From positions 1 to 64,000 of the forward strand of contig DYKB01000030.1 in assembly GCA_020722815.1 (NCBI GenBank): a DNA stretch of 64,000 nucleotides, written 5' to 3'. A model generated the notes under the pieces. The model was given only the letters and a program-made list of their open reading frames with translations, was not told the origin of the DNA and made no database searches. Origin of the DNA: Caldithrix sp. (GTDB lineage Bacteria; Zhuqueibacterota; Zhuqueibacteria; Thermofontimicrobiales; Sulfurfontimicrobiaceae). Within the stretch, counting starts at the first letter, position 1. Each line of letters opens with the position of its first letter. Position numbers and translations under genes: made by a program. This document shows, piece after piece, positions 1 to 63,727 of this stretch.

Positions 1-356
1 ATTTGTCAAGAAAAAAATTACTCCACCCCAAAAAATTTATGCGTAACGATTAGCATTTGAGGGAAGGGGTTGGGGGATGGGTTAGAAAATAGTGTTGATA
101 AGAATAAAATTTAACTTTTCTCTTTGTCACGATGTAACTTTATCAAAAAAAATATTTCTTTGTTCGGTCAGCATCCTTTTTTACCCATCCCCTGGCCCCT
201 TCCCTAAAAAACAGGGAAGGGGAATTGATAATTTTTCGCATCTCCCCGTGTCCAGTAAAAGATGTGGGACATGATCAACCCTTTAGGAGAAGGTTGGGGT
301 GAGGGTCACGAGCGTGGTTTAACGATAATTTATAAAAAAGTGTACGGCAGTGAAAT
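1..356. repeat. Partial family A element with nested family N cassette in inverted orientation
   Basis: Shares gagggaaggggttgggggatgggttagaaaat...ccctaaaaaacaggg...tctccccgtgtcc and right end tataaaaaagtgtacggcagtgaaat with the 21771-22185 copy. Confidence 0.75.
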
Positions 357-6189: not shown

Positions 6190-6370
6190 TTTATTACCTT
6201 CATAAAAATAGACTCAATAAAATAATTTACAGTCAGTGGCGCATTTGCCAGAATTTTTCCAAATATGAAAATTTTCAAAAAGAAAAAGAGCACGAATACG
6301 GTATGACGGCACATTTCGACCTCACTTTTTTGGAATAATCGTCAAATGATTTATACCCTGAATAATTCAT

Positions 6371-6640
6371 CGCCTCGAAGATACCAAGACACGAAGAAGA
6401 ACTATTGATTTCAATAAGATACTTAATAGATTGATATTAAACACCCTATCATACACTTTTCAATACCGCCAGAGCTAACCCCTCACCCAAACCTCTCTCC
6501 AAAGTGTAAAGGGAATAGCTACGCCCTCCTCCTTTGGGAGAGGGTTGGGGTGAGGGTCACAAATAAAGAGTAAAAATGAAGTTTCACGCAATGCCAATCT
6601 TTACATATTGTTTTTTTCGTGTCTTTGTGTCTTCGTGGCA
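6371..6640. repeat. Element bounded by inverted 'cgaagacacaaagacacgaaga' arms (family C), enclosing a family A copy
   Basis: cctcgaagataccaagacacgaagaag at 6373 versus ttcgtgtctttgtgtcttcgtggca at 6617-6640; family A core at about 6447-6590. Confidence 0.6.
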
Positions 6641-6684
6641 AAAAAAAATTGAAATTCACTTCGTTAGAATTTTAAATTATACTA

Positions 6685-21758: not shown

Positions 21759-21770
21759 ATTTCGCTTGGC

Positions 21771-22185
21771 TACCTTACACTATTTAAAATCGTCAAATCT
21801 GACCCCTCACCCTAACCCTCTCCCTTTGAGCTGATCTTGACCCACATCTCGTTATTGGACACGGGGAGATGGCCAAAAAATTATCAATTCCTCTTCCCTG
21901 TTTTTTAGGGAAGGAGCAAGGGGATGGGTAAAAAAGGATGCTGACAGAACAAAGATATATTTTTTTAATAAAGTTTCATTATGACAAAAAGAAAAATTTA
22001 ATTTTGTTCTTATCAACACCATTTTCTAACCCATCCCCCGACCCCTTCCCTCAACTGAGGGAAGAGGAGTGGCCATCTCCCCGTGTCCAGTAAAAAAATG
22101 TGGGACACGCTCAGTCCTTTGAGAGAGGTTTAGAGTGAGGGGCACAAGCGTGATTTAACAAAAATTTATAAAAAAGTGTACGGTA
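21771..22185. repeat. Family A element containing a nested palindromic cassette (family N)
   Basis: Outer ends taccttacact / agtgtacggta; inner perfect 16-bp inverted repeat ggacacggggagatgg (21857-21872) / ccatctccccgtgtcc (22073-22088). Confidence 0.8.
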
Positions 22186-22218
22186 GTAAAATTTCGCCTG
22201 ACTTCAATTAGCTCATAA

Positions 22219-25340: not shown

Positions 25341-25431
25341 ATTTAACCTGGATTTTTCATAAATTTTGCCACGAAGGCACAAAGACACAACGAAAACAAT
25401 TTGTTACAGATTATGATTCGTATACGTCCAA

Positions 25432-25527
25432 AGGTTCAAGGTTTAAGGTTCAACTTTTCCGAGTTAAGGATGAAGAAATATTAAAACGAAGGGTTTCTAA
25501 CCGTGAACCATGAACCAGCCAACCTGA
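25432..25527. repeat. Family D 'ggttcaaggttcaac...gaaccatgaaccagccaacctg' element
   Basis: Second copy at 63641-63727 with the same ends. Confidence 0.6.
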
Positions 25528-25577
25528 GTATTTACAAAATATGACAAATTTTCATTGCACGATTAATGCGATATGTG

Positions 25578-25775
25578 CTGCCGTACACCTTTTTACCTTA
25601 ATTTAATGATTCATTTTTAGACCACGCTCAAAGCCCTCACCCCAACCCTCTCCCAGAGGGAGAGGGCGAAGCTATTCCCTCTCCCTCTGGGAGAGGGCCG
25701 AAGCTATTCCCTCTCCCTCTGGGAGAGGGTTAGGGTGAGGGCCGGTTTTGCTTAATCAAAAAGTGTATGGTCGTG
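25578..25775. repeat. Family A element with duplicated internal 32-bp unit
   Basis: ctgccgtacacctttttacc ... caaaaagtgtatggtcg; cgaagctattccctctccctctgggagagggc starts at 25667 and again at 25699. Confidence 0.8.
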
Positions 25776-25875
25776 AAATGCGATTATATCTAAAATTAGC
25801 GCATTAAATGTAATATTAAAAATCCGTTATTCTTCTTCGTGCCTTTGCGTCTTCGTGGCAATGAGTTATATTTTC

Positions 25876-35722: not shown

Positions 35723-35772
35723 GGGGAAATTTGAATTTTATAAATTTTTTTTTACGTGAAGTATCCGGAAAA

Positions 35773-36123
35773 TTTGCCACGAAGGCACGAAAACACAAAG
35801 AAAACCGTACGTTAAGGATTATCTTATATTAAAAATGGATATTTCTTCTTTTAACCATGAATAAGAATCAGAGAAAAATTTCAAGTTTTATGAACGCAAT
35901 AACTTATTTAAAATTAAATACGAAAGACCTTTAAAAAGTAACCGTTCACCGGGTGGATCGACGCTGTCATTCCCGCATGTTTTTAGTGGGAATCCATATT
36001 TCTTTTGGCAAGTGGGTGCCCGATAAAAGCATTCGGGCCTGACAGAAGCTTTTATTTTATCACACCTGTAAACGGATAATTTATAAATACTTTTTATCTT
36101 CGTGCCTTAGCGACTTCGTGGCT
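35773..36123. repeat. Family C outer inverted repeat enclosing a family B element
   Basis: tttgccacgaaggcacgaaaacacaaag versus cttcgtgccttagcgacttcgtggct. Confidence 0.7.
35939..36079. repeat. Family B MITE-like element
   Basis: gtaaccgttcaccggg ... cacctgtaaacggataa; internal tcattcccgcatgtttttagtgggaatccat and tgcccgataaaagcattcgggcctgacag. Confidence 0.85.
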
Positions 36124-36133
36124 ATAAATGATT

Positions 36134-51130: not shown

Positions 51131-51420
51131 ATGCGTGATACGTAAAGCGTAATGCGTGATAGGTAATATATGTAATAACAAATTGATAAATAATAAGTTA
51201 TACTAATTTACGAGTATCCGTTCACAGGTGTGATAAGATAAAGGCTTCTGTCATACCCGAATGCTTTTATCAGGCATCCATTTATCTGAATAACAATGGA
51301 TTCCCGCCAAAAACAGGCGGGAATGACAGATTCGATCCCCCCTGTGAACGGTTACATTTATTATATCCTTTCTACGTATTATGCATGATGTATCACGTTT
51401 TACGCCTCACGCTTCACGCC
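51131..51420. repeat. Outer inverted repeat (atgcgtgatacgtaaagcg... / ...tatcacgttttacgcctcacgcttcacgcc) enclosing a family B element
   Basis: Arms 51131-51166 and 51373-51420; family B at 51214-51355. Confidence 0.65.
51214..51355. repeat. Family B MITE-like element
   Basis: gtatccgttcacagg ... cctgtgaacggttac; internal catacccgaatgcttttatcaggcatccat and ggattcccgccaaaaacaggcgggaatgacag. Confidence 0.88.
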
Positions 51421-51427
51421 CCCCCCA

Positions 51428-54400
51428 TCATCTCACCAAAACCATCTTCCTGATTCGTGAAAAATGCGCGTTTTCACAGGAGAAATGATAAAAATAAATC
51501 CCGCTGGCAACCGATTCACCGGCTTCGTTACTCCCATCCCAGAAATATTCATAAAAGCCACCTTCAAGTGCTTCACCACGAATCAATGTTTTTACCCGCT
51601 GTCCCAGCATATTATAAATGGTCAGATTTACCCGGTCCGCTTCCGGTAAAAAATATTGGATAAGTGTATGACTGTTAAAAGGATTTGGGAAATTGGCAAA
51701 TAATTCGAAGGAATCAGGCAAATCACGAACGCCCGCCCGATGAGTCTGAATAAACGCATCCGTTCCAACAATTAAACGGAAAGGATGAGCGTACTGGTTC
51801 ATGCCACTGGCAAAGGTAATATTTTTCTTCTCCTTCAGAGATTGAATTGTTTTGAATTTTAAATCAATTAAATGAATGCCGAATCCTTCAGGCAAGGAAT
51901 CCAGCATACTGAATTCCAGTTTAACCGGTTGATTTTCCAGCGAGGTCTGCACTTCAAAGTCCCAGGAATGCCCTTCACTGGATTGGGGACGGAAATCAGT
52001 GGCATAAATTTCGGCGCGCTCCTTCCAATCCAGATGTGGAAAGCGGACAGCAACAAAATCCGAGATAATTGGCGGTTCGTATAAGTCATTTTGATCCCAT
52101 TCATCAGCAGCATCGGATTTTACGCCAATATAATTTGACGGATCCTGCAAATCAGTACCGGTTGCTGAAATTTTCATTTCCCAGCAATCTTTCAAATTTT
52201 CTTTTTTGGCAGCATTTTTCGATTGCCTGACAGGATTAATGATCAGTGTCGTTGGCTTGGCACATTTAATCATATAGCCTTCCCAGGGCGCAATTTGCGC
52301 GATATCCGGCTTAAGCTGCCAAAAGTCATGATAGGTAATCAGATTGACCAGTGGTTCACCACTTTCCAGTGTTAAATTTTCAGGAGAAATGGGAAAATTG
52401 AATGGATTCCCAATCATCGTCCAGGTGGTACTATCAATGGGAATTCGGAATGGCGTATTAATCGGAACGGTTTTACCGACACCCGTGTCAATATTTTTAA
52501 CTTCATTGCGCGCGATAAACCAGTAAGCCTTTCCTGGCAAAAATCCGTCTTTAATATTTTCATATTCAAAAAATTGTTGGTGATGATAAAGGAATAAACG
52601 CCATTTTTTCAGATCATATTGCCCCAAATCATCCTCCAGGACGGCTGGCAAGGCCGGTTGATCCAAAATTAAGGGGATTGAAATCATCCGATACTTTGTT
52701 GTCTCCTTGCCGAAAGGCAGTGACATTGGATAGACCAATCCATCACGCTGGGTTTCAACTGAAATATTAAAAAAGGAATTTTCTGGAATCCAGGTCTGAT
52801 TTCCCATCCGGTCCTTTGAAATTAACGCATATTCAAGACCGCGTAAGGTAATATGTTCAGATGAAATGCTAAATGGCGATTGCATCATCTTATAGAAAAT
52901 TGTATCCTGAACGCCACCAATACGAATGGCAATCAAATTTTCATCGACACCGGAGCCGGAATCTACAGCCGTAAAATTAATGGAAATAGATTCACCCGGA
53001 CGCGTCGGCGTGACGGGGACATGGAAAATTTCTGGTGGTTTCGTGTCGAGTAAAAATTTAAATGGCAATGCAGGCGTTCCATAAATCCAGCCATCCCAGG
53101 CGCTGACACGCCACCAATACGCGCCATCGGGCAGAGTCGCGGATAACTTGAAATTGACATTACCAGAATCCGCCGGCACAGCCTCCTGTATTGAAAAACC
53201 AGTGAGTTCAGTTTTTGATTCAAAACTGAGAACCGGTTTGGTAAATAGACTATCACGACTGAACTCGATTTTAAAATGTAATCGATTATTTTCAAAATCA
53301 GCCGGCACCTTCCAGGTAAAAGATTCCCGAGCCAAATCAATAAAAAGACCATTCACCGGGCTCAATAAAACCGGTGCGTCGGGCGGATGATTTCTGGGGG
53401 CGCAAAGTGTCCGGCATTCGGCAATTTTTTGTTGAACTTCCCGATTGCCGGCACTATCCCACGCGGCGACTTCAAAGCCGTAATAATGCCCGATTTCTCC
53501 GGTATAACGAAGCGTATCCCCCTGATATTTTTCAAGATATGGGAGCCAGATTCCGGAATAATCTTTTTCAACCCAGATATCATAAAAACCGGTGAGACCA
53601 GAACCGCCTGGATCAGTACTGGTTGGTTTCCAGTCGATACGAAAGGATGGACCATTGCTCAGGGCTGGCCCATTCGCGTAGGTTCCCGTTGGCGGCAGGT
53701 GGTCATATTTAAAAATAAAAATCGTTTTCCATTCATCAGCCAGGTTACCAGCCAGATCCTGAGTTCGAATGCGCAAATAGCGTTTGCCGCTTTCAACCGG
53801 GCCAGATGGAAATTGATTTAATTTTGTAAAGTGATCACCAATTCCCGCTGAATCCATGCCCCAATAAATCCAATACCCAGCAATGCCGCTATTATCATCA
53901 GCATTTTCCCAGGTAAAAAATGGATTGTCCCATAAATTTTGCCACTGGTTATTTTGGGCACCGGCTGTATCGGAACAGAATAAGGGATTGGCTGGAGGTC
54001 GGGTGTCGATTTTCAGCGACCAGGTTTGCGATTTTTCACCATAAAACTGCCCATCCCAGGCGGAAACGCGCCACCAGTAGGTGCTATCAACGAGATCCTC
54101 TGGAATTTTGAAATGGACTTCACCCGAATCAGACGGAACAGGCGGCACGGGTGTAAAGCCGGCGACATTTAAATTGGATTCATAAGTTATTAAATTACTT
54201 GAAAATAGGCTATCTAAAGCTATCTCAACTTTAAAGTGTAATCTATCTGAATTTCCATCAATCGGAACACGCCAGTGAAGGTCCGGAGCCGTTTGATTGG
54301 TGATGGTATAATTTATTGGATTCAGCAGGATCGTTTTTTCAGGAGGCACAGCACTCAGTTGCTGTGTGGTATCGATCAGGGTTGAACTTTCTGCCAATTC

Positions 54401-57400
54401 CTGGAAAATCTCGAGATTTCCCACCTGATCATAAGCTGCTACTTCAAAATCATACCGACTTCCCTGATTTCCGGTAAAAATCGCTGTCTGCCCGGAATAA
54501 TCCGAAAGCCAGGTCTGCCAGGAGCCTTCATTTTCACGAAATCTTACCGCATAAAGTCCTGACAAACCCGCGCCGGAAATATTATCCGTACCCGTTCCAT
54601 ACCAGCTTACCTTGAAAGACTCCCGGTTAGAAACGGCCGGCGAAAAGGCTACGGTTCCCGACGGTGGTGTTTTATCGATATAAAGTGTAAATTCTTCCTG
54701 TTCAGAATTTCCGGCTGAATCCGACATGAAAATTTCAAGCGTGTGCACCCCATCTGGCCAGTCTGAAATAGATAGCGAAATCGGAAATGGCTGAATATGT
54801 TGCGAAATGTTGGTTTCATCAATTACGGTATCAAGCTGATTGACAATTAATTTAAGTTTTTCGACACGCGTTTCCAAATAAAAGAGATCAAGTTCAAGTG
54901 TCGAATTTTTGTTGGGATTAAACCAGTTTTCGCCAGCGTCCGGATTTTTAAGAACAAGTTGTTCAAGAACAGGAGATGTTTTATCATATCGCAGCAAAAC
55001 GCTATCCCGACGGGTAAAGCTCAAATTGCCGCGTCCATCCTGCAACCAGAGAAAACACCACTGACCATCCTCCTGAGTGGCTTTTACGGTGATTTCCGAA
55101 GCTGAAACCAGTTCAGCCGTCCCCGTGGTGTCAAAATTGGAAACAGGCGCCGTGCCCAGTTTAAAGAAAGCACGCGTAATACCGCTCCGATCATACAGAT
55201 TTCGCCAGCTTAAGTGAAATTGAGGTTGATTTTGCCAGCGGCGTAATGAGGTACCGGTAGCAACTAAATCACGCGGCGCCAGGGGGGGATAGGTATCAAT
55301 GCTCAGCGTGTCAATAAGCGTCACCGTTTCAGGAAGACCTGTAAACGGCTCCACATTTCCCGCACTGTCACGTGAGGCGACTTCAAAACCATAGCGCCGG
55401 CCCTGTTCACCGGTATAAAAAAGACCGGTCCCGATGACATCCAGATCTTCAGGCAACCACCAGGAGTTCTCCTCTTGGGTCACCTGAACCCGAACAGAAT
55501 AGTGATTGGTCAATTGTGAACCGCCGGCATCGGTCGCGGTACTTTCCCAATTCACATAAAAAGTTTCCGAATCGCTCACCGCTACAGATTGTGCCAGGGC
55601 ACCGGTAGGCGGGATATCATCATATTTCAATATAAAAGCGGTTTTCCAGGCAGAAAGATTCGCCGCGCGGTCCTGCATTTGAATACGTAAATAATGTACC
55701 CCGCTTGCGACCGCAGGAAAAGTGAGAGTATCCTGCGAATCAATATTGACGCGGAAGCTATCAGCTTCCCCGCCGGCATCCGGTCCCCAATAAAAATAAT
55801 AGCCTGCCAGCCCGGCCCGATTATCAGCAGCGCCTTCCAGCGCAAAGATTGGTTCATTTACTAAATTTTGCCACTTATTTGACGAACTGCCATTCAACTC
55901 ATTTATTTTTATAAAAAGTAATGGTGCTGTATAATCGATAGTTACCTGAGCCGGCTGAGAGCCTGGACTCAAACTAATACCATCATATTCCCGCACGCGC
56001 CAGAAATAAACACCATCAGGGATATTGAATGGAAATTTAAATTGAATCGTATCTTCGGCTGACATCACTGGCAAATTGGGCATAAAACCGGCTGGATCGC
56101 GCCAGGAGTCGAATTGCCAGCGAACAGTTTGAAAGTCGGCATCATCCGCAATTTCGATACGAAAATGCAGGCTATCCTGGTTCAGATCGGCGACTGGCAG
56201 CCATTTAAAAATAGGCTGTGAATTATTTATAAAACTATTATTCGCCGGTTCAAGAATCAGTGGGGAAAGCGGCGGTTGTTCAGATTCATGAATCACCAAC
56301 AATCGGTTTGATGTCAAATCCGTTAGTTTGAGCGTATCCCCAACAGGCCAAATTACCAGCAAGGAATCGATCAAAGAATTTGCACCAAGACCGAAATGCT
56401 CCGGCAGAAGATGAAAATTGAACGCGCCTGGACTAGCACCATTCACTTCCCGCATCTGCCAGGTCCCACCTGATTTCATCCGGATACGAGCACCCAGCGC
56501 GTCTCGGTTACTGTTTTCACCGACCAGTTGTATTTTTAACCAGTTATTTTTATTACCGGAATTCTCATATAGTTGATTTTTACCCGAAGTATTCAGCGCA
56601 AAAATATCCAGCGCGCCATCATTATTATAATCAAAAAAAGCACCGGTTTCACCACTTTGATCAGTTAAATTTTCGACTTCTGCCACATTTTGAAATGTAC
56701 CATCCTGATTATTTTTATAAAGAACATCGGTTTGAAAACTGGAGCAGAGATAAATATCCGGCCAGCCATCGTTATCATAATCACCAAAATGGGACGTAAA
56801 TCCATTGGAAATACGGGCAACGCCAGCATCATTCGCGACATTTGTAAAATAGTATTCGGGTGCGCCATTGTTCCGCATTAATCGGTTGGGAGCACCGGAA
56901 GCTGTCAGATATAGATCCTGATTGCCGTCGTTATTATAATCCCCGGCAATGACCCCGGTAAAATTTGAACTCAATGCCAGACTTTTTTGCGATGCAACAT
57001 TTTTAAAGGTGCCATCCTGCTGATTTTCATACAGATGATTGGATGAATTATTATTTATCAAATAGATATCCGGAAAGCGATCCTGATTATAATCAAAAAA
57101 AATGGCGCCAGTGCCTTTCGAACGGGCATTTACCCGGGCAATTGAAGCACGATCAATAAATTGAAAATTTGGTGCACCGGTGTTCTTTAAAAGCATATTT
57201 TGATAATTTTGATCGCCAAAAACAAGATAAAGATCGAGATAGCCATCCCGATCATAATCACCAGCAGCACACGCAACCACTTCGCCGGAAATCTTTAAAT
57301 TTGCTTCCCGCGTTACATCCACAAAGTTGCCATCGCCGGTGTTTTTTAACAGCCGGAGTGGATTATAATACAAAAGATCAGGAAAACCATCATTATTATA

Positions 57401-57712
57401 ATCAATAAAAGCCGTCCCGCGTGGGCTCGCTGTGCTATCCTGCAAAATTGGCAATGTCTGTCCAACCTCGGTGAAATGCCACGAATCACCCCCGTCATTC
57501 CTGAACAACAGATTTTGACCCTGCGCCAACACAAAGATATCAAGATTTCCATCGCGATTAAAGTCAGCAAGCGCCACGCCGCGTCCTTCATTTTGAATGG
57601 CGATGCCGCTTTCCGGACTCACATTCCTGAAATCAGCATTGGCCTTGCCAATGACAATTATCCACAAAAAAAATAATAAAATGCCTGTCGTTTTCCAATT
57701 CATCGTACGCAT
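51428..57712 (-). CDS. Giant secreted FG-GAP/ASPIC-UnbV (CRTAC1-like) protein with repeated Fn3-like modules and T9SS C-terminal domain
   Basis: 2094 aa; repeated DYNNDGxxDIYL; LGARIRMKSGGTWQMREVNGASPGAFNFHLLPEHFGLG; tandem PPTGT..SFxxxW..TGTDxxGSGLxGxY modules; LFANFPNPFNSHT. Confidence 0.9.
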   Translation of the reverse strand: MRTMNWKTTGILLFFLWIIVIGKANADFRNVSPESGIAIQNEGRGVALADFNRDGNLDIFVLAQGQNLLFRNDGGDSWHFTEVGQTLPILQDSTASPRGTAFIDYNNDGFPDLLYYNPLRLLKNTGDGNFVDVTREANLKISGEVVACAAGDYDRDGYLDLYLVFGDQNYQNMLLKNTGAPNFQFIDRASIARVNARSKGTGAIFFDYNQDRFPDIYLINNNSSNHLYENQQDGTFKNVASQKSLALSSNFTGVIAGDYNNDGNQDLYLTASGAPNRLMRNNGAPEYYFTNVANDAGVARISNGFTSHFGDYDNDGWPDIYLCSSFQTDVLYKNNQDGTFQNVAEVENLTDQSGETGAFFDYNNDGALDIFALNTSGKNQLYENSGNKNNWLKIQLVGENSNRDALGARIRMKSGGTWQMREVNGASPGAFNFHLLPEHFGLGANSLIDSLLVIWPVGDTLKLTDLTSNRLLVIHESEQPPLSPLILEPANNSFINNSQPIFKWLPVADLNQDSLHFRIEIADDADFQTVRWQFDSWRDPAGFMPNLPVMSAEDTIQFKFPFNIPDGVYFWRVREYDGISLSPGSQPAQVTIDYTAPLLFIKINELNGSSSNKWQNLVNEPIFALEGAADNRAGLAGYYFYWGPDAGGEADSFRVNIDSQDTLTFPAVASGVHYLRIQMQDRAANLSAWKTAFILKYDDIPPTGALAQSVAVSDSETFYVNWESTATDAGGSQLTNHYSVRVQVTQEENSWWLPEDLDVIGTGLFYTGEQGRRYGFEVASRDSAGNVEPFTGLPETVTLIDTLSIDTYPPLAPRDLVATGTSLRRWQNQPQFHLSWRNLYDRSGITRAFFKLGTAPVSNFDTTGTAELVSASEITVKATQEDGQWCFLWLQDGRGNLSFTRRDSVLLRYDKTSPVLEQLVLKNPDAGENWFNPNKNSTLELDLFYLETRVEKLKLIVNQLDTVIDETNISQHIQPFPISLSISDWPDGVHTLEIFMSDSAGNSEQEEFTLYIDKTPPSGTVAFSPAVSNRESFKVSWYGTGTDNISGAGLSGLYAVRFRENEGSWQTWLSDYSGQTAIFTGNQGSRYDFEVAAYDQVGNLEIFQELAESSTLIDTTQQLSAVPPEKTILLNPINYTITNQTAPDLHWRVPIDGNSDRLHFKVEIALDSLFSSNLITYESNLNVAGFTPVPPVPSDSGEVHFKIPEDLVDSTYWWRVSAWDGQFYGEKSQTWSLKIDTRPPANPLFCSDTAGAQNNQWQNLWDNPFFTWENADDNSGIAGYWIYWGMDSAGIGDHFTKLNQFPSGPVESGKRYLRIRTQDLAGNLADEWKTIFIFKYDHLPPTGTYANGPALSNGPSFRIDWKPTSTDPGGSGLTGFYDIWVEKDYSGIWLPYLEKYQGDTLRYTGEIGHYYGFEVAAWDSAGNREVQQKIAECRTLCAPRNHPPDAPVLLSPVNGLFIDLARESFTWKVPADFENNRLHFKIEFSRDSLFTKPVLSFESKTELTGFSIQEAVPADSGNVNFKLSATLPDGAYWWRVSAWDGWIYGTPALPFKFLLDTKPPEIFHVPVTPTRPGESISINFTAVDSGSGVDENLIAIRIGGVQDTIFYKMMQSPFSISSEHITLRGLEYALISKDRMGNQTWIPENSFFNISVETQRDGLVYPMSLPFGKETTKYRMISIPLILDQPALPAVLEDDLGQYDLKKWRLFLYHHQQFFEYENIKDGFLPGKAYWFIARNEVKNIDTGVGKTVPINTPFRIPIDSTTWTMIGNPFNFPISPENLTLESGEPLVNLITYHDFWQLKPDIAQIAPWEGYMIKCAKPTTLIINPVRQSKNAAKKENLKDCWEMKISATGTDLQDPSNYIGVKSDAADEWDQNDLYEPPIISDFVAVRFPHLDWKERAEIYATDFRPQSSEGHSWDFEVQTSLENQPVKLEFSMLDSLPEGFGIHLIDLKFKTIQSLKEKKNITFASGMNQYAHPFRLIVGTDAFIQTHRAGVRDLPDSFELFANFPNPFNSHTLIQYFLPEADRVNLTIYNMLGQRVKTLIRGEALEGGFYEYFWDGSNEAGESVASGIYFYHFSCENAHFSRIRKMVLVR

Positions 57713-63596: not shown

Positions 63597-63640
63597 TTAA
63601 TTCCTCCAACTTCCATGATGATAAAAATCGTGACTATCCA

Positions 63641-63727
63641 GGTTCAAAGTTCAATAGTTTCCGGTTCAGGGCTCAGAAATATGAAAGTGAAGGTTCCTCA
63701 CCATGAACTATAAACCAGCCAACCTGT
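63641..63727. repeat. Family D element
   Basis: ggttcaaagttcaatagtttccggttcagg ... ctcaccatgaactataaaccagccaacctg. Confidence 0.6.

Follow-up and report, generated by a model that had tools for sequence, protein, structure and literature searches.

Nested repeats in the window

Why do inverted repeats of different families lie one inside another in the 64,000-nucleotide stretch of DNA analysed here (the window), and was each inner element drawn to hairpin or cruciform DNA, as an earlier note had proposed? The answer favoured here, at a probability of about 80%, is that the nesting would be a stack of non-autonomous transposons (MITEs) between the genes of a candidate-phylum KSB1 bacterium, produced by two processes: chance stacking of several MITE families, and the insertion of elements P and Q by a Tn5-like lineage that selects the apices of palindromes.

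At the headline locus, an outer element of family C on the forward strand (25347-25875 with its inserts; ends CCTGGAT..TTCATAAATTTTGCCACGAAGGCAC / GTGCCTTTGCGTCTTCGTGGCAATGA), delimited by empty paralogues in the genome and by consensus alignment, holds two other elements. The family D insert lies at about 25418-25530 (boundaries approximate), where the C alignment breaks at consensus position 71 and restarts at 105; a second D-like copy occurs near 63620-63720. The family A insert (25574-25777, forward strand) is flanked by an 8-bp target duplication (TSD), ATGCGATA (25566-25573) and ATGCGATT (25778-25785), matching at 7/8 positions, and the C consensus matches overlap at 140-148 around it, in agreement with that duplication. 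This A copy contains three unoccupied CCCTCTCCC-nnn-GGGAGAGGG hairpins and a strong fold at 25634-25742 (z = -10.8); an Rfam search found no match in the window. A second C element (6365-6650, reverse strand), recognised by consensus alignment, carries a decayed A insert in which no TSD could be made out, and a third (35750-36130, forward strand) is broken between consensus positions 163 and 181, in a BLAST search with the C consensus, by a family B insert at 35938-36079 with the TSD TTTAAAAA (35930-35937) / TTTATAAA (36080-36087), 7/8. Another B copy, at 51214-51355, sits in an inverted repeat, E, of the GCGTGATACG type (51131-51420), with the TSD ATTTACGA / ATTTATTA, 6/8. All four nestings that the earlier note had described were found about where it had placed them.

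Two further nestings involve elements P and Q. A P element at 21831-22114 occupies a hairpin apex of an A copy (21765-22193, forward strand), between the 9-bp duplicates CCCTTTGAG (21822-21830) and TCCTTTGAG (22115-22123), which agree at 8/9 positions. The contig itself starts with the end of an insertion sequence, Q (1-53, reverse strand; a CTAATCGTTACGCATAAATTTT variant), lying in the hairpin (CCCTTCCCTCAAATG) of a second P copy (54-278) that Q has truncated; the right end of this P, ATGTGGGACATGATCAA then CCCTTTAGG, is followed by A sequence (279-356). The start of the window is therefore a three-level nesting, A⊃P⊃Q.

Outer and inner segments do not form constant units. C copies of about 220-250 bp that lack any insert are present elsewhere in the genome, and when the C consensus is compared by BLAST with the filled copies, C sequence flanks each insert on both sides. 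Together with the TSDs, this identifies inner and outer elements as separate units joined by transposition.

Repeat families in the genome

Pattern searches of the whole assembly (7.29 Mb, 247 contigs) returned 384 A cores, 145 B ends, 168 P ends and 48 C arms, and the reversed-pattern controls for the same searches returned only 0-4 matches, so that the inverted repeats are not products of chance. The family counts come from 2.48 Mb of DNA, roughly one third of the genome with the window included, chosen around the A, B, C and P matches; profile searches of this sampled DNA gave dozens of matches each for A, B, G, K, M, N and P. Families A, B, K, N and P are more than repeated palindromes, having conserved, transposon-like ends and TSDs of 8-9 bp, and A, B, K and N are short, non-coding, many-copy elements with terminal inverted repeats and TSDs, as MITEs are. 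For A and B, whose ends are conserved, 8-bp TSDs were seen in 20/49 and 43/81 cases, each B locus being counted on both strands. The nested families are indeed distinct from one another, as had been supposed, each being a separate miniature transposon present in many copies. Family C shows no TSD among 15 full copies, and may be an old element or another kind of repeat.

The ends of family B (GTAACCG..CGGTTAC) and its 8-bp TSD resemble those typical of IS66 elements (GTAA ends, 8-bp TSD), a likeness that makes B a candidate, and no more, for an IS66-related MITE. A longer relative of B (474 bp; L019, 14281-14755), with ends GTAACCGATCACCGGGTG and the perfect duplication CATAATTT on both sides, interrupts many contigs of this assembly and lies at many contig ends. 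Beside N-type ends (CAATAGTGTTCGGC) at L027, 5500-6250, there is a DDE_Tnp_1 reading frame that may be the autonomous counterpart of family N. In the window, a large frame (51428-57712) contains at 56590-57410 six repeats of 39-50 nt, spaced by about 150 nt, which are likely protein repeats.

Families A, B, K and N at their insertion sites

Empty sites were rebuilt by removing the insert and one copy of the TSD, and palindromes centred on the TSD were scored. None of the 98 TSD-verified sites of A, B, K and N has a palindrome score of at least 8 at the insertion point, against 1-2% of control positions. About 21.5% of the sampled DNA (534 kb) is noncoding, and dispersed repeats make up 34% of that fraction; a random noncoding position is nested in another repeat in 26% of cases, an approximate background, since it depends on a crude longest-ORF coding mask and on a sample chosen around repeat matches. 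Nested copies among the TSD-verified ones number 1/32 for A, 8/36 for B, 4/15 for K and 0/15 for N, or 13/98 in total as compared with the 26% expected. The inserts in C, when placed by BLAST on the C consensus, fall at various points of its interior.

With neither a palindrome signal nor an excess of nesting, the idea that A, B, K and N target hairpins is rejected, and the earlier claim that A, B and D were directed to hairpins or cruciforms in C and E finds no support. Chance stacking in crowded intergenic space suffices for the nesting of A, B, K and N. In the proposed explanation, A, B and like families would insert in noncoding DNA that is AT-rich, making 8-bp TSDs and showing no preference for hairpins. 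Since repeats already make up about a third of the sampled noncoding DNA, some copies would fall in older elements such as C and E.

Element P in the apices of A hairpins

The idea of palindrome-directed insertion, which fails for the families named in the earlier note, holds for P and Q, which occupy hairpin apices in the same window. Element P is about 280 bp long, with ends CTGATCnTGnCCCACAT, and about 54 of the 57 detected copies, read by eye, lie in the apex of the CCCTCTCCC-nnn-GGGAGAGGG hairpins of A. Its 9-bp TSD is centred on the loop and comprises three stem, three loop and three stem bases; the two duplicates match perfectly in 15/56 copies and at 8/9 positions or more in 27/56. All 17 copies in a stringent set are nested, as against 26% expected (p=1e-10). 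Loop triplets differ from copy to copy (TTT, AAA, AGA and others) and P is found in both orientations, indicating separate insertion events.

The target is not a fixed 9-mer, a candidate that was rejected: in the sampled noncoding DNA outside A, 0/64 CCCnnnGGG sites hold P, and the 9-mer alone is therefore insufficient. One copy (L007) has instead entered the 9-nt loop of an unrelated hairpin of B, ATTCCCGC..GCGGGAAT. The two other exceptions are a copy in the end of a B element (L062) and one in the end of a K element (L120), both IS66-like ends with no clear hairpin.

Several side observations concern hairpins. At L033 (1499-1771), L105 (10714), L127 (8724), L185/L270 and L253, one loop copy is the reverse complement of the other rather than a direct repeat (CCCTTTGGG..CCCAAAGGG), which could reflect recombination or unusual joining at a hairpin. 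The A hairpin loops at L006 (16345), L027 (10003), L015 and L118 (6833) contain a small palindromic sequence that lacks transposon ends, either CCCTTCGACAAGCTCAGGTACC or a variant of it. A P-like end also occurs in the same type of hairpin at L199, in the Calditrichaceae MAG Zod_Metabat.370, for which recent transfer and a binning error are the suggested alternatives.

Element Q and Tn5-like transposase fragments

Element Q, a repeat with ends CTAATCATTACGCACAAGT that interrupts contigs, sits in A hairpins; in two places, L125 and the start of the window, its host is the P hairpin. Ends of the CTAATCATTACGCACAAGT and CTGATCTTTACCCACATCT types match the IS50 terminal consensus CW------Y---CA-A--W-, and P ends break it at position 9. 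Tn5-like transposase fragments, with E values down to 1e-35, lie directly inside Q ends on contigs C126 and C131, the C126 copy having a broken reading frame and a weak match to PF01609. In this genome a Tn5-like transposase is represented only by such fragments beside Q ends, among them a 229-aa piece with no Pfam match; relatives elsewhere carry both Tn5 domains. A search of the genome for PF14706 found no match, and the sampled third contained no intact autonomous element. Contig C113 has a DDE fragment that was considered as Q and is not Q, and the Q end, when scanned across genomes, matched in no other species. The TSDs of 8-10 bp given for this lineage were measured on P (9 bp) and on relatives; the Q copies, decayed or at contig ends, yielded none. 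Judged by its ends and transposase fragments, Q is IS50/Tn5-like.

In the same explanation, P and Q would either be members of an IS50/Tn5-like lineage within the IS4 family or owe their mobility to it, with a Q-type transposase presumably moving P. The transposase dimer would pick the apex of GC-rich palindromes and cut the two strands about 9 bp apart, with the loop at the centre of the stagger. Family A would be the natural target because it contains several such palindromes, and P adds a further palindrome, in which Q could then land.

Relatives in other genomes

An initial scan for half of the hairpin followed by CTRAnC gave 88 matches in many phyla; its design favoured that hairpin, and certain matches are plainly due to chance in coding DNA. 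One of them, L182 (522-2914), is a complete insertion sequence with the TSD CCCAGAGGG in the same type of hairpin as the P target, and its 761-aa protein has DruA, Tnp_DNA_bind and Dimer_Tnp_Tn5 domains. A second set of relatives was picked by transposase similarity alone, which removes the hairpin bias. In the clades near L229 and L182, together with Rhodothermus and Nostoc, 9/17 rebuilt targets are palindromic (score of at least 7) versus 1.7% locally, with a p value (3e-12) that is indicative only, since the clade groups were set after some targets had been seen and five of the 17 copies come from one genome (G337). The palindromic targets are varied, including CCCCCGGC-AAA-GCCGGGGG, CCCCCCTT-AAA-AAGGGGGG, CCCCTCTCCCGC-AA-GCGGGAGAGGGG and an 18-bp stem with the loop CGC (L264), and the TSDs are 8-10 bp long. 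Several relatives (L271, L275, L279 and L245) have targets without a clear hairpin. In IS50-like clades with CATC..TTATACAC or alphaproteobacterial ends, 2/12 sites are palindromic, weakly above background (p=0.01), so that the strong palindrome preference does not extend to the subgroup as a whole.

In one clade of IS50-like transposases, represented by the L182 element and by L243, L262, L263 and L264, the Tnp_DNA_bind and Dimer_Tnp_Tn5 domains are fused to a DruA domain (PF14236, the protein of the Druantia anti-phage system) at the N-terminus; the hairpin targeters of Burkholderiales have no DruA domain.

Symmetric sequence or hairpin geometry

The transposase probably recognises the symmetry of its target or the geometry of a hairpin, and not one fixed sequence. 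One reading, a real possibility that falls a little short of an even chance, is that P and Q read a symmetric duplex (a C-tract, about 9 bp, a G-tract), palindromes being simply the best symmetric match. Consistent with this, outside the TSD the flanks of the 17 events in relatives are strongly biased to C at -2 and -4 and to G at +2 and +4, C/G flanks occur without a clear stem at certain targets (L271, L277), and Tn5 itself prefers palindromic sites whose repeat ends carry G-C pairs (PMC1525189). Given this plain base preference, part of the apex effect could be symmetric sequence recognition. Against it stand the unused CCCnnnGGG sites outside A, the wide variety of loops and stems, and a permutation in which right flanks were shuffled among the 17 events with the C/G bias kept: the mean palindrome score of the true flank pairs is 7.9, that of the permuted pairs 4.9 (sd 0.3), and 0/2000 permutations reach 7.9, indicating that pairing matters beyond base composition. 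A transposase dimer reading a symmetric duplex would nevertheless give the same permutation result. The further suggestion that a widespread Tn5-like lineage reads extruded hairpin or cruciform DNA independently of sequence and inserts at its tip, making palindromic MITEs landing pads and self-stacking targets, is tentative, with appreciably less than an even chance.

It is improbable that A with P, or C with A or B, moved through the genome as one composite, the nesting then recording a few ancestral events. The hosts of P are all A except about three, and the window's two P copies share 89-95% identity over parts of their length, as such spread would predict, yet many A hairpins are unoccupied and C elements empty, loop copies differ between P copies and still match within 29/56 of them, and P occurs in both orientations, in both hairpins, and in B and K as well. 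Least credible is the view that nesting reflects tolerance, insertions anywhere else having been purged by selection, since, although it accounts for A, B, K and N being nested no more often than chance predicts, other MITEs persist elsewhere in noncoding DNA, and it is contradicted for P by the fully nested stringent set and by the concentration of nearly all copies in A hairpin loops, which form under about 1% (our estimate) of the 534 kb of sampled noncoding DNA.

Comparison with known systems

Target choice by cut-and-paste transposases is mostly loose. IS1630, which belongs to another family (IS30), reportedly selects inverted repeats whose sequence varies, and duplicates them. IS1397 and ISKpn1 reportedly insert on the symmetry axis of palindromic units or close to it, a likeness to the present elements that extends to IS110-type elements and ISPsy8; unlike the present elements, all of these have unrelated transposases, short or no TSDs and a fixed REP sequence as target. 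ISPsy8 itself, an IS3 family element, lies at the axis of a REP hairpin (PMC1525189). Families A, B, K and N resemble other bacterial MITEs (reviewed in PMC10969869) in being short and numerous, with terminal inverted repeats and TSDs, and differ in that the nesting here is unusually deep and one family targets the hairpins of other MITEs.

A Tn5-related lineage appears to use palindrome apices across KSB1, Chloroflexi, Cyanobacteria, Rhodothermus and Burkholderiales. Insertion in terminator-like and MITE hairpins spares genes, which would explain the persistence of such elements, and the system is one in which it can be tested whether a DDE transposase reads DNA secondary structure. The literature searched, which lacks most subscription journals, contains no report of palindrome-apex insertion by the IS50 subgroup.

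Two parallels lie within the IS4 family. Members of its IS50 subgroup, which includes Tn5, have ends of the form CW------Y---CA-A--W- and 8-9 bp repeats (PMC2266710); Q and the relatives' ends (CTnnnnnTTACCCACA) match this consensus, TSDs here are 8-10 bp, and the relatives' transposase has Tnp_DNA_bind and Dimer_Tnp_Tn5 domains, whereas the present lineage is directed to palindrome apices and one of its clades is about 2.4 kb long with an N-terminal DruA domain. ISRm22 of Sinorhizobium meliloti, every copy of which lies at the palindromy axis of REP elements (PMC1525189), shares insertion at a palindrome axis with P and the relatives, but belongs to a different subgroup, IS4Sa (PMC2266710), has one REP family in one genome as its target and reportedly makes 6-bp repeats, the present targets being MITE palindromes or single hairpins and not REPs. 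Palindrome-axis insertion is already known from the REP-targeting ISRm22 and ISPsy8, and the present case is a variation on that behaviour.
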